Assembly (NCBI RefSeq): GCF_005145025.1 | Contig: NZ_CP039695.1 | Coordinates: 2,289,501 to 2,353,500 of the forward strand | Origin: Novosphingobium sp. EMRT-2 | Lineage (GTDB): Bacteria; Pseudomonadota; Alphaproteobacteria; Sphingomonadales; Sphingomonadaceae | Direction: 5' to 3' | DNA: 64,000 nucleotides | Shown here: piece by piece, positions 4,815 through 19,579 of the stretch | How positions within the stretch are numbered: the first letter of the stretch is position 1 | Layout: every line of letters starts with the position of its first letter | Made by a program: the position numbers and the translations under genes | The notes under the pieces: model-generated | What the model saw: only the letters and a program-made list of their open reading frames with translations | The model's database searches: none | What the model was told of the DNA's origin: nothing

Positions 4815-4830
4815 TGTTCCACGTGGAACG
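4815..4830. other. parS site A (ParB-binding)
   Basis: TGTTCCACGTGGAACG contains the perfect 14-base palindrome GTTCCACGTGGAAC, matching the bacterial parS consensus (B. subtilis TGTTCCACGTGAAACA). It is intergenic, 1.3 kb past the parB stop and about 12 kb from the proposed origin. Recognition by the ParB encoded at 6122-7084 is inferred. Confidence 0.88.
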
Positions 4831-7860: not shown

Positions 7861-8540
7861 CGGCGAGTTTCCTTCCGGCGTTTGGCCTTTTGGACAACCG
7901 GGGGCTGGCCACCAAGGAGGCGACCAGCGATGACGCCCGCGTCGGGGTCTGTCAGCGATTGTTCCACGTGGAACATATGGCGCCAGGATTTCGGGAGCAT
8001 GTCCAATTCATGCTTTGCCTTGGCCCCTTTGGGCAACAGCCAAAGCGTGTCTGGTGTGGAAAAGCGCGCAGAAAGAAGCAACAGCTTGTCGAGAGGCGCG
8101 AATGCGCGCGCCGAAATCACGCTAGCCGTCCGTGCCGGTACATCTTCCACCCGCGCCAGAACGACCTCCACATTGGCCAGATCCAGCGCCGCTACGGCGC
8201 GTTCCAGCCATTCGGTGCGCAACCGCCGCGAATCGACTAGCGTTACGCGCCGTTCAGGCTGCAGCGCCGCCACCACCAGCCCGGGAAAGCCCGCCCCGGT
8301 CCCCAAATCAAGCCACGGCCCTTCCGGCACTGTTTCACGTGGAACATCGAGCAGCTGCGCGCTGTCGACGATATGCCGCTGCCAGACATGCGCCAGCGTC
8401 CCGCGTGCCACGAGGTTCTGGCGTTCGTTCTCCGCCACCAGCAGATCGACCAGCCGGGCCAGGCGCGCCATGCCGTCCGCATCAACCCCAAGCCGATCGC
8501 GCAGCCAGGCTTGGGCATCCGCTTCGCTGACGATCGTCAT
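7857..8540 (-). CDS. rsmG: 16S rRNA (guanine-N7) methyltransferase RsmG
   Basis: A 227-residue RsmG (GidB). The SAM-binding motif [10 protein letters not shown] is at residues 78-87, preceded by HIVDSAQLL. The enzyme methylates N7 of G527 in 16S rRNA, a change linked to streptomycin sensitivity. It overlaps the mnmG stop and the parA start. Two parS sites (7960-7975 and 8331-8346) lie within its coding sequence, giving the peptides MFHVEQ near the C-terminus and DVPRET at about 65-70, so the DNA sites constrain the protein. Confidence 0.95.
7960..7975. other. parS site B
   Basis: TGTTCCACGTGGAACA, a perfect 16-base palindrome matching the parS consensus. It lies inside rsmG, near its 3' end, and is read there as the codons for MFHVEQ on the minus strand. 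Confidence 0.93.
8331..8346. other. parS site C
   Basis: On the minus strand this reads TGTTCCACGTGAAACA, identical to the classic B. subtilis parS 16-mer. It is within rsmG, encoding part of DVPRET. It is the only site in the window that departs from the symmetric GTTCCACGTGGAAC core. Confidence 0.93.
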
Positions 8541-16857: not shown

Positions 16858-17198
16858 CGGTTCGGTCCAATCCTAAAAAATAGATTCTTTTAAAAAGGAT
16901 GATGGAATCTGTTGTGCTGTGGATAGCGGGGATGAGCGCGCTCTGCCCGATTTGTGCCGGAGCCTCCACAAAAAAGCGTGGACCGACTCTGCGGGGCCGG
17001 CGGTCAAGGCGAAGTTATCCCCGCAGTCCCCAGCCTGTGGGGAAGGCTTTCCACCTGTCGGCAAATGGCTTGTGGATTTGCGGGCTGCGGGGGTGAAATG
17101 GCAGGTCGAACTTGTCGTCGCATTCCTCCCGTGGTTTATCCTTGCGCTATCCACAGCCTCATCCCGGGGCGCCGGAAAAGACGGGGAAACGGGCCTCG
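16858..17198. other. oriC: chromosomal replication origin (oriC)
   Basis: This 341-base gap holds no gene. It has an A/T-rich block at 16872-16898 (candidate unwinding element) and DnaA-box-like 9-mers at 16918-16926 (minus strand CTATCCACA), 17015-17023 (TTATCCCCG), 17036-17044 (minus TTCCCCACA), 17071-17079 (minus AAATCCACA) and 17147-17155 (CTATCCACA). Three GANTC sites (CcrM methylation targets) lie at 16883-16887, 16905-16909 and 16985-16989. It sits next to hemE, genes diverge from it, and parS sites are nearby. These facts together make it the likely chromosome origin. Confidence 0.88.
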
Positions 17199-18044
17199 AT
17201 GACGCGGTTGCACCTGCACCTCCTGTCGGATTCCACCGGTGAAACGCTGGAGATGATCGCCAAGGCGGCGCTCGCGCAGTTCGACGATGCCGATATCGTC
17301 CGCCACTTTTGGCCGATGGTCCGTTCGCAGCAGCATCTCGACCGGATCATGGGGGAAATCGCCGCCAATCCGGGGCTTGTCCTGTTCACGCTGGTCAATG
17401 CGGAAACCCGCGAACGGCTGGAACAGCGCTGTGCCGCGCTCGGTTTGCCCAGCGTGGCCGCGCTCGATGCGGTGACCGATGCGCTGGAGGAGCAGCTTGG
17501 CCAGGAAGCGAAGGCGCGGCCCGGCCGCCAGCACATGATGGACGAGGCCTATTTCGCCCGGGTCGATGCGATTCAGTTCACGATCGCGCATGATGACGGG
17601 GTGGGCTGGGAAAACTGGGAGCAGGCCGACATCCTTCTGGCCGGTGTTTCGCGCTCGTCCAAGACGCCGACGTCGATTTACCTCGCCAACCGGGGATACA
17701 AGGTGGCGAACATTCCGATTGTCGTGGAAAGCCCGCCCCCTTCGTCACTGTTCAATCTGCGCCGGCCGCTGGTGGTGGGGCTGACGACATCGCCCGAACG
17801 GCTGATCCAGGTCCGGCGCAACCGGCTCCTCTCGCTCAACCAGTCGCCTGAAACGGCCTATGTGAACAGCGACCAGGTCGCGCGCGAGGTCCAGTACGCC
17901 CGGCGGATGTTCGCGGACAACGGCTGGCCGGTGATTGACGTTTCGCGCCGTTCGATCGAGGAGACCGCGGCGGCGGTGATCAACCTCTACAACGAACGCC
18001 AGGCCGCCGGCGGTTCGGAAACGCCCGGACCCAAGCCGATCTGA
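17199..18044 (+). CDS. pyruvate, phosphate dikinase regulatory protein (kinase/pyrophosphorylase)
   Basis: A 281-residue DUF299/PPSR protein. It begins MTRLHLHLLSDSTGETLEMIA, the family N-terminus, and has the unusual P-loop GVSRSSKTPTSIYLANRGYK near 150-170, then LFNLRRPLVVGLTTSPERLIQVRRNRL. Such enzymes switch pyruvate phosphate dikinase or PEP synthase off by ADP-dependent phosphorylation and on by phosphorolysis, setting the flux between pyruvate and PEP. The ATG at 17199 is chosen because upstream in-frame sequence is origin DNA. In Caulobacter too, this gene flanks oriC. It begins the rightward gene set. Confidence 0.93.
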   Translation: MTRLHLHLLSDSTGETLEMIAKAALAQFDDADIVRHFWPMVRSQQHLDRIMGEIAANPGLVLFTLVNAETRERLEQRCAALGLPSVAALDAVTDALEEQLGQEAKARPGRQHMMDEAYFARVDAIQFTIAHDDGVGWENWEQADILLAGVSRSSKTPTSIYLANRGYKVANIPIVVESPPPSSLFNLRRPLVVGLTTSPERLIQVRRNRLLSLNQSPETAYVNSDQVAREVQYARRMFADNGWPVIDVSRRSIEETAAAVINLYNERQAAGGSETPGPKPI

Positions 18045-18698: not shown

Positions 18699-19396
18699 GT
18701 AACGTGGCGTCCAAACCCTATGCAGAGGTAATTGGCGATCCCATAACGCAATCCAAGTCGCCCGTTATTCACAATTTCTGGCTGAAGCAGCTGAAAATCG
18801 ACGCTGTGTATAACGCCTGTCACGTAACGGACGGCGATTTGGCGGCCTATTTGGCTGATCGCCGTAACGACGAGGCCTGGCGCGGCTGTAACGTTACGAT
18901 GCCGCACAAGCAAACGGTGATTCCGTTACTCGATCGGCTCGATTCCGGGGCCGAAAGGATCGGCGCGGTGAACACGATCGTGCGTGAACGTAACGGGATT
19001 CTGGTTGGCCGTAACACCGATGCCCCCGGATTCCTCGAACCGTTACGCCCGTTACTGGACAAAACGCACCTTTTCCGGATGGCGCGCGTGCTGGGCACCG
19101 GCGGAGCGGCGCGCGCGATCGTTACGGCATTGGCGGATGAGCACATGGTCATCGTGCTGGCCGGCAGAAATCCGCCAAAAGCACGGGCGTTACTCGATGA
19201 ACTGGACCCCGGCGGCGAACATCACGCGGTCGATATCGCGCACTTCGAATCTGTAACGGATTTTGCCTTTGACGACCGTGCCGGGTGCCTCGATCTGGTG
19301 GTCAACGCCTCTTCGCTGGGGATGAGCGGCCAACTGCCGCTGCTTTTCGACATGAGCCACGCGCCGCCGGGCAGCGTGTTCTACGATATCGTTACG
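18699..19396. repeat. dense cluster of GTAACG/CGTTAC motifs within aroE
   Basis: GTAAC or its complement GTTAC occurs 14 times here, starting at 18699, 18824, 18864, 18888, 18893, 18925, 18990, 19011, 19042, 19051, 19121, 19189, 19253 and 19391; 13 of the 14 extend to GTAACG/CGTTAC. The pair at 18888-18897 forms the perfect palindrome GTAACGTTAC. Both orientations are used. In the rest of the window I found only about five GTAACG/CGTTAC by eye. The codons are bent to fit: TTA for leucine in four motif copies, GTA for valine, CGT-AAC for Arg-Asn. This suggests protein-binding sites laid over the gene. Confidence 0.85.
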
Positions 19397-19579
19397 TCAC
19401 CGCTCGAAACGGACTTTCTCAAGGCGGCAAGCGCCGCTGGCTTTCGCACCGTGGATGGCCTGTCGATGCTGATCGGGCAGGCGGACCATGCCTTTGCCCA
19501 CTTTTTCGGCACGCGGCCGCCGCGTGACCGCGATGCCCACTTACGCCGGGCGATTGCAGGCCAGGAGATTGCAGGATGA
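18704..19579 (+). CDS. aroE: shikimate dehydrogenase
   Basis: A 291-residue AroE starting at GTG 18704 (preceded by AAAGGG). The shikimate-binding SKSP motif is at 17-20, the catalytic lysine is K69 in NVTMPHKQ, the second catalytic residue is D106 (GRNTDAPGF), and the NADP-binding GTGGAARA loop follows near 130. It reduces 3-dehydroshikimate to shikimate in aromatic amino-acid synthesis. Codon use is unlike its neighbours: five TTA leucines and several GTA, ATA and CGT codons, mostly created by a dense run of GTAACG motifs. The protein itself looks intact. It overlaps coaE by four bases (ATGA). Confidence 0.94.
   Translation: MASKPYAEVIGDPITQSKSPVIHNFWLKQLKIDAVYNACHVTDGDLAAYLADRRNDEAWRGCNVTMPHKQTVIPLLDRLDSGAERIGAVNTIVRERNGILVGRNTDAPGFLEPLRPLLDKTHLFRMARVLGTGGAARAIVTALADEHMVIVLAGRNPPKARALLDELDPGGEHHAVDIAHFESVTDFAFDDRAGCLDLVVNASSLGMSGQLPLLFDMSHAPPGSVFYDIVTSPLETDFLKAASAAGFRTVDGLSMLIGQADHAFAHFFGTRPPRDRDAHLRRAIAGQEIAG

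Follow-up and report, generated by a model that had tools for sequence, protein, structure and literature searches.

A dense, clade-specific array of GTAACG motifs over aroE in Novosphingobium sp. EMRT-2

Background

HIP1 of cyanobacteria is a short palindromic word that is very frequent in coding sequence throughout the genome, and sites of the matS/MatP and SlmA type are short palindromes for an architectural protein that are dispersed singly over large regions. DnaA titration clusters near oriC, such as datA and DARS of Escherichia coli, consist of many short sites and are suited to act as a sponge (PMC12371093, in excerpt). Subsites of the Pseudomonas putida regulator CbrB are printed as TGTTAC or GTAACA, one of them as GTAACg, and the CbrAB system is called exclusive of pseudomonads in the excerpted parts of that source (PMC6296734). 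Many transcription factor sites can lie within genes, those of PhoB being an example (PMC10294691, in excerpt).

Here we describe an array of the word GTAACG/CGTTAC laid over aroE, the shikimate dehydrogenase gene, in Novosphingobium sp. EMRT-2; "the window" below is the whole 64-kb stretch of DNA that was analysed. Like HIP1, this is a short palindromic word inside coding sequence, but HIP1 is found genome-wide, whereas the array word is scarce across the genome and concentrated at single loci; the dispersion of matS/MatP and SlmA-type sites likewise contrasts with the dense clusters at few loci seen here. The array resembles datA and DARS in its many short sites and its suitability as a sponge. 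As far as the excerpts of that work extend, the array departs from them in having a word other than the DnaA box, in being located within a housekeeping gene and in its restriction to one clade, with sister clusters away from oriC. The CbrB subsites share the GTWAC core of the array word, but are described in the excerpts as few and placed in promoters, in contrast to many copies inside a gene; CbrB is the nearest printed recognizer of this core that we saw, and is taken as a lead. Compared with intragenic sites of the PhoB type, as excerpted, a single gene is here filled nearly to the limit set by its protein. Among the best matches in the openly licensed literature, neither such an array nor a factor binding CGTWACG was described for sphingomonads.

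Results and discussion

The aroE array

An earlier note on this DNA had described fourteen GTAAC/GTTAC copies, 13 of them GTAACG/CGTTAC, in about 700 bases over aroE beside oriC. A direct count confirms these figures: the window contains 31 GTAAC/GTTAC, with 14 in 18699-19395 and 17 outside the array, and 18 GTAACG/CGTTAC, with 13 in the array and exactly five outside it, at the positions that the note had listed (8241, 10390, 48613, 50625 and 51612). The flanking genes maf and coaE contain zero copies each, the palindrome at 18888 is present, and the cost in rare codons that had been pointed out is visible as TTA in four copies, GTA in two and CGT-AAC in three. The position of aroE and the gene order are the same in six loci compared. 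The features of the gene are as follows (conservation refers to the three genomes described below).

18704..19579, + strand: aroE (shikimate dehydrogenase), the array-bearing gene; Pfam Shikimate_dh_N 5.1e-27; GTG start assigned at 18704
18699..18704, + strand: GTAACG copy 1, in the maf-aroE gap, its final base being the first of the GTG start codon; conserved in 3/3 genomes
18824..18829, + strand: GTAACG copy 2, Val-Thr, GTA-ACG; conserved
18864..18869, + strand: GTAACG copy 3, Arg-Asn, CGT-AAC; conserved
18888..18893, + strand: GTAACG copy 4, Cys-Asn, left half of the palindrome GTAACGTTAC; conserved
18892..18897, - strand: GTAACG copy 5, Val-Thr, right half of the palindrome GTAACGTTAC; conserved
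18924..18929, - strand: GTAACG copy 6, Pro-Leu-Leu, TTA codon; conserved
18990..18995, + strand: GTAACG copy 7, Arg-Asn; conserved
19011..19015, + strand: GTAAC copy 8, followed by A; Arg-Asn-Thr, G being unreachable without a protein change; conserved
19041..19046, - strand: GTAACG copy 9, Pro-Leu-Arg, TTA codon; conserved
19050..19055, - strand: GTAACG copy 10, Pro-Leu-Leu, TTA codon; conserved
19120..19125, - strand: GTAACG copy 11, Val-Thr; conserved
19188..19193, - strand: GTAACG copy 12, Ala-Leu-Leu, TTA codon; conserved
19253..19258, + strand: GTAACG copy 13, Val-Thr; conserved
19390..19395, - strand: GTAACG copy 14, Val-Thr, the last synonymous hexamer place in AroE; conserved
18743..18748, + strand: ATAACG variant
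18763..18768, - strand: ATAACG variant, overlapping the DnaA-box-like TTATTCACA at 18765
18810..18815, + strand: ATAACG variant, overlapping the minus-strand TTATACACA at 18805
19338..19343, + strand: the sole independent synonymous hexamer place left empty in AroE

The two strands are used equally (seven GTAAC copies on each). No fixed spacing or orientation was seen among the array copies, helical phasing was absent whether 14 sites (p 0.69) or 17 (p 0.80) were considered, and the trend in orientation along aroE is not significant (p 0.07).

Clustering and null models

The EMRT-2 genome (G000; five contigs, 4.77 Mb) contains 772 GTAACG (357 + 415), a rate far below the array density of 18.7 per kb. 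At the genome rate, 0.11 copies are expected in 697 bp, with a Poisson probability of about 7e-23 for at least 13. Across 397 genomes of the family, GTAACG reaches at most approximately 0.42 per kb (using rounded genome sizes), and a genome-wide word of the HIP1 kind was rejected on these counts. Codon shuffling of aroE, which the earlier note had proposed as a null model, never yields the 12 copies observed in the coding sequence. In 20,000 sequences for each of three synonymous nulls, the mean and maximum are 2.7 and 9 with the gene's own codon usage, 0.64 and 5 with the codon usage of its neighbours, and 4.3 and 11 when codon choice is conditioned on the previous base and trained on aroE itself.

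In an all-word scan of the window, the array is the strongest cluster at word lengths 5, 6 and 7, though not at 8. A hexamer-cluster scan of 101 loci of at least 8 kb, run without hexamers of two letters, placed the window and three loci of two close relatives at ranks 1-4. The array is also the top hexamer cluster in the 2.45 Mb of its own genome that was read (C2-C5 whole and parts of C1). The maximum in C1:1-1.326 Mb is 2 GTAACG per 700 bp (forward-strand places only), and C1 outside the parts read may contain a further array.

Saturation and extent of the recognized unit

The hexamer can be written at 18 positions of AroE without a change in protein; five of them are second ways of writing a Val-Thr that is already counted, which leaves 13 independent places, and 12 of the 13 are filled. 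By this statistic, which is post hoc in that it was defined after the array was seen, the close relatives fill 12/13 (L031) and 12/14 (L003). The 84 other aroE orthologues fill only 18/637 (binomial 3e-18 versus the own 12/13), and none of the 38 reachable positions in seven neighbouring genes carries GTAACG. The 3' limit of the array coincides with the last place at which AroE permits a synonymous hexamer. EMRT-2 AroE offers 13 opportunities versus 5-11 in the orthologues, and some amino-acid changes may therefore have been recruited: Val184, at motif copy 13, is Val in 0/84 other orthologues. Overall, motif codons show no significant excess of unusual residues (5/26 vs 25/248, p 0.18).

Among the 13 coding copies, where the protein permits, the left flank is C in 11/12 and the right flank G in 9/9. 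The C just beyond the hexamer is present in 8/9 possible cases versus 316/848 in a genome sample (p 0.0022). Because these flanking bases are preferred, the full unit is probably CGTWACG, a quasi-palindrome with the core GTWAC that is symmetric except at its centre. One-base variants in aroE are filled at 3/4 (ATAACG), 1/1 (GTAACA), 2/4 (GTCACG), 1/2 (GTTACG), 1/3 (GTGACG) and 1/1 (GAAACG) of their reachable places, and at 0 for the remainder.

Conservation and distribution

Among the genomes searched, the array is present only in G000, G067 and G074, with 14/14 GTAAC at identical positions. Between these genomes, which are approximately 95% identical across the window, GTAAC is kept in both relatives at 14/14 places in the array versus 8/17 elsewhere in the window (Fisher p 0.0013), and two of the five isolated GTAACG are conserved. 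Variable bases in the array span number 0/81 within motifs versus 35/616 outside them (p 0.012); for sites with synonymous freedom, the figures are 0/30 and 27/215 (p 0.024). Each of these tests is weak by itself because only three genomes, so similar to one another, carry the array. A single locus with many sites that are nearly identical and better conserved than the background has the character of a homotypic binding-site cluster, binding itself being predicted here.

An aroE match was found in 194/195 genomes of the genus that were searched. Among the matches listed, a close AroE (97% identity) occurs only in G000, G067 and G074, the next being 77% identical (78% over part of its length). 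The 84 other unique orthologues, drawn from 110 loci (30 loci of one search and the best 80 of 472 of another), have 0-3 GTAAC each, with GTAACG absent from 69, single in 12 and double in three. That the array belongs to aroE or to oriC in general is thus not supported. Orthologues lacking enrichment, which the earlier note had named as evidence against its reading, are the rule in the rest of the genus but not within the three-genome clade, where the array is intact.

Clusters at other loci

The aroE array is real, highly unusual and clade-specific, and is one of several CGTWACG-type clusters across Novosphingobium. A second cluster in the same clade (C1:1,798,061-1,799,240; L241:8061-9240), approximately 0.51 Mb from the oriC region, contains 10 GTAAC/GTTAC, including four GTTACGTAAC palindromes. 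It spans the end of a Sigma-54 activator gene, the adjoining gap, and a frame with Pfam RecF/RecN/SMC matches that we take to be recF; the activator gene is presumably pspF, since a PspA-like reading frame adjoins it. All 10 positions are common to G000, G067 and G074, and the bases between the palindromes partly differ in the latter two. The matching 4 kb of seven relatives contains 0-3 GTAAC; these relatives, also used for the crtB comparison below, were hand-picked from the genus hit list and are not a random sample. Coding saturation is low at this locus (1/8 in recF and 1/7 in pspF), and the unit may differ between loci, because just 4/10 copies are CGTWACG.

Not far from the pspF-recF cluster (1.80 Mb on C1), five more zero-spaced GTWAC pairs (L246:10728, L246:13044, L247:10757, L243:13388 and L245:17685) occur within approximately 80 kb (1.84-1.92 Mb). 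The 12 pairs in G000 are completed by three at 2.308, 2.654 and 2.697 Mb.

In six of the seven relatives, the word is instead grouped in a carotenoid region, identified by Pfam matches to lycopene cyclase and phytoene synthase; the remaining carotenoid gene names are our assumption.

L281 (G025:C28:27001-36500), L283-L286 and L290: crtB-region loci

Within crtB and 1.5 kb on each side (3.95 kb), there are 5, 5, 10, 5, 8 and 7 GTAACG in G025, G079, G088, G005, G172 and G107, respectively (1.3-2.5 per kb, inside and between genes), versus 0, 1 and 0 in G000, G067 and G074. The seventh relative, G184, has zero around crtB and no recF cluster. One motif position, intergenic in G025, precedes crtB by an equal distance in five of these six relatives, and 14/50 reachable places are filled across seven genes of the G025 region. 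In G079, a 5.5-kb stretch adjacent to flagellin contains 19 GTAAC, 15 of which are CGTWACG (L280:617-3882; on G079:C2, a second contig of 1.16 Mb). These copies are mostly outside the flagellin frame, in DNA that is apparently non-coding.

A search for GTWACGTWAC found groups at other places in the relatives. This zero-spaced pair is not over-represented in whole genomes (12 in G000 versus 10 for the backward-read control; 2-10 versus 7-21 in nine other genomes), and therefore the signal is one of clustering, not abundance.

Very few GTAACG occur in genus g31 of the family, 63-141 in each of G224, G306, G365, G410 and G446. Four of these five genomes have it 6 to 16 times less often than the backward-read control, and may possibly avoid the word.

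A putative binding array

The array appears to be favoured at the DNA level and, because both strands are used equally, is most likely bound as double-stranded DNA. We consider it probable that the copies in aroE are homotypic sites for a sequence-specific protein recognizing CGTWACG, with the core GTWAC: symmetry, use of both strands, varied spacing, lack of helical phase and near-saturation suit a double-stranded DNA-binding protein for which local density matters. Such a protein would bind the CGTWACG sites in aroE, and the favoured property would be high local occupancy, as no spacing, orientation or phase is fixed and nearly every permitted place is used. A single genus-wide protein may serve all of the clusters. 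The dense bound patch would most likely act on the locus that it covers, by regulating or silencing transcription, and may also coat it; the closest alternative is that the patch titrates the protein. Counting against a binding array are the ordinary genome-wide frequency of the zero-spaced pairs, the much lower filling of coding sequence at the other loci, and G184, with no cluster at crtB or recF.

A broader proposal, which we put forward tentatively and hold to be somewhat less likely than its opposite, is that Novosphingobium possesses an undescribed DNA-binding or chromatin-like system, whose CGTWACG sites accrue by point substitution until the permitted places are nearly full, and whose locus switches between clades. 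The loci would be, for most of the relatives viewed, the carotenoid region; for the present clade, aroE and pspF-recF; and for one other genome, the neighbourhood of flagellin. On this view, codon choice in a housekeeping enzyme would yield to selection for a high density of sites, which might also have recruited amino-acid changes.

Should a protein indeed bind these arrays, they would be a striking example from nature of how a binding signal in DNA can override the choice among synonymous codons along a housekeeping gene, and of how arrays of this kind can change position among related genomes. The arrays could be used directly as bait for the protein, and within the genus, loci that have the word can readily be set against loci that lack it. 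The arrays would also warn that a codon-usage anomaly in a gene can mean a binding array instead of a foreign origin.

Proximity to the replication origin

The likely origin is the hemE-ppsR intergenic region, and the lowest cumulative GC skew of the 12-24 kb stretch is near 16.5 kb.

16858..17200, no strand: hemE-ppsR intergenic region, likely oriC; DnaA-box-like sites; GC-skew minimum nearby; no array copy

A position of oriC near hemE is described for Sphingomonadaceae in the excerpted part of PMC4741004. The earlier note had suggested a bound array (titration locus, nucleoid anchor or initiation regulator) 2 kb from the origin. The DNA-level array stands; the origin role fares less well, with clusters approximately 0.5 Mb away and, in relatives, at crtB or flagellin. 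An origin-linked titration or anchoring array, lying 1.5-2.5 kb from oriC for the sake of early duplication or of position, as with DnaA-titrating loci, is in our estimation unlikely, although it is the most plausible of the alternatives. The array begins approximately 1.5 kb from the hemE-ppsR region, and its lack of a spacing or phase requirement is expected of a sponge; the second cluster, too, involves a gene of replication and repair, recF. The array contains two exact TTATNCACA words (18765 and 18805), the only two in the window versus 11 in 1.60 Mb of other sequence of this genome, and these DnaA-box-like words leave some room for the origin reading. Both overlap ATAACG variants, however; at least two such words arise in 37/5,000 synonymous shuffles, the second (18805) is inexact in G067, and the NNNTNCACA words in 78 sphingomonad hemE-ppsR regions are mostly TCCACA. 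The array is also clade-specific, as the 0-2 GTAACG in other orthologues show. Because clusters occupy different loci in different clades, mostly away from oriC, a specific origin role is less likely, and the nearness of the array to oriC is probably incidental.

Several known types of element were rejected. A DnaA-box titration locus of the datA/DARS type does not fit: by the criterion used for a DnaA box (TTWTNCACA-like), none of the 14 array copies qualifies, and there are only the two exact TTATNCACA. Sites with at most three mismatches from the 16-bp parS palindrome consensus TGTTCCACGTGGAACA are found at 4815, 7960, 8331, 10428, 11786 and 46673, with none in the array, which is thus not a parS/ParB centromere. 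The isolated GTAACG at 8241 and 10390 are within 90 bp of the parS-like sites at 8331 and 10428; this closeness is probably due to chance, because the 8241 copy is not conserved in the two relatives. Nor does the array appear to be one of plasmid iterons: in C2-C5, read whole, no 700-bp window has more than three GTAACG, and the repeats at presumed origins (four guessed places) are other words.

DNA modification

The CGTWACG unit of the putative protein-bound array, a short interrupted palindrome with a central W and two-fold symmetry, resembles the kind of site that a DNA modification system recognizes, and zero-spaced core pairs occur in all orientations. That the clusters are recognition sites for methylation or a similar modification, marking or timing a locus, is nevertheless improbable. 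In a comparison of two methylase families, PF01555 and PF07669, across ten genomes, G000 has a single N6_N4_Mtase (PF01555) match, of a kind present in all ten, and has no Eco57I-type (PF07669) match, which 8/10 genomes have at some level. Modification alone gives no reason for filling one gene.

History of aroE

Acquisition of aroE from a donor genome full of the word, or a codon or word bias, would account for several anomalies of the gene: its GC3 is 0.70, against 0.79-0.84 in eight neighbours, and it has more rare codons than they do. In trees of aroE and of six neighbours (74/82 loci kept), its stem branch is 0.247 versus 0.132 for the neighbours. A search of 5.8 billion proteins found the clade's own cluster (40 members) and then proteins of at most 77% identity, with none between 98% and 77% among the best 120 of 4,308 matches. 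We nevertheless regard this origin as very improbable. The three codon-based nulls stay below 12, the family-wide ceiling on GTAACG is far below the density of the array, gene order is conserved in the loci compared, and the motif words resist change between relatives. The aroE tree places the gene among Novosphingobium, with weak support (0.144), and the neighbour-gene tree likewise puts the clade there. There is no apparent sign of aroE transfer in these sequences, only of some acceleration. The earlier note had argued that a foreign origin would not by itself favour one hexamer; neither foreign origin nor codon bias explains the array.

A second AroE-like protein, of 36% identity, is encoded at G000:C3:540440-541243 on the 757-kb replicon and is also present in G067; in G074, the matches listed include just a short weak AroE-like match besides aroE.

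An RNA-level element in the aroE mRNA (a structure, a regulatory RNA or a ribonuclease site) is the least credible explanation, since, although GUAACG and CGUUAC can pair, with three motif-motif stems in the predicted fold, and the array spans the transcript from the start codon, both strand forms are equally used, the fold is no better than 20 shuffles (z -0.27), and the word occurs in the apparently non-coding DNA of one relative.

Candidate binding proteins

For the putative protein recognizing CGTWACG, 20 window proteins were compared with Pfam: ParB, which has its own parS sites, is the sole clear sequence-specific DNA-binding family, and 3/20 scanned frames are without a Pfam family. MucR/Ros was rejected as a clade-specific binder, as its 2-4 matches in ten genomes do not set the clade apart. 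CbrB carries a Fis-type domain, and matches to the Fis-type HTH_8 number 9, 10 and 9 in the clade versus 7-8 in seven other genomes; the one or two extra HTH_8 proteins in the clade are possible leads. Judged by frame length, one Fis-type HTH (G000:C3:614714-614833, in a 326-aa frame) has a same-length counterpart in the three clade genomes and another (G000:C1:888400-888519, 205 aa) in G000 and G074, with neither found in the seven others. The 326-aa frame adjoins an aldehyde dehydrogenase-like frame, and its 20-kb stretch contains 2 GTAAC.

A DnaA-domain search gave 32 matches in G000; nine other genomes have 1-6. Identical scores are shared by many of the additional matches, which at a guess are perhaps insertion-sequence ATPases multiplied in this strain.
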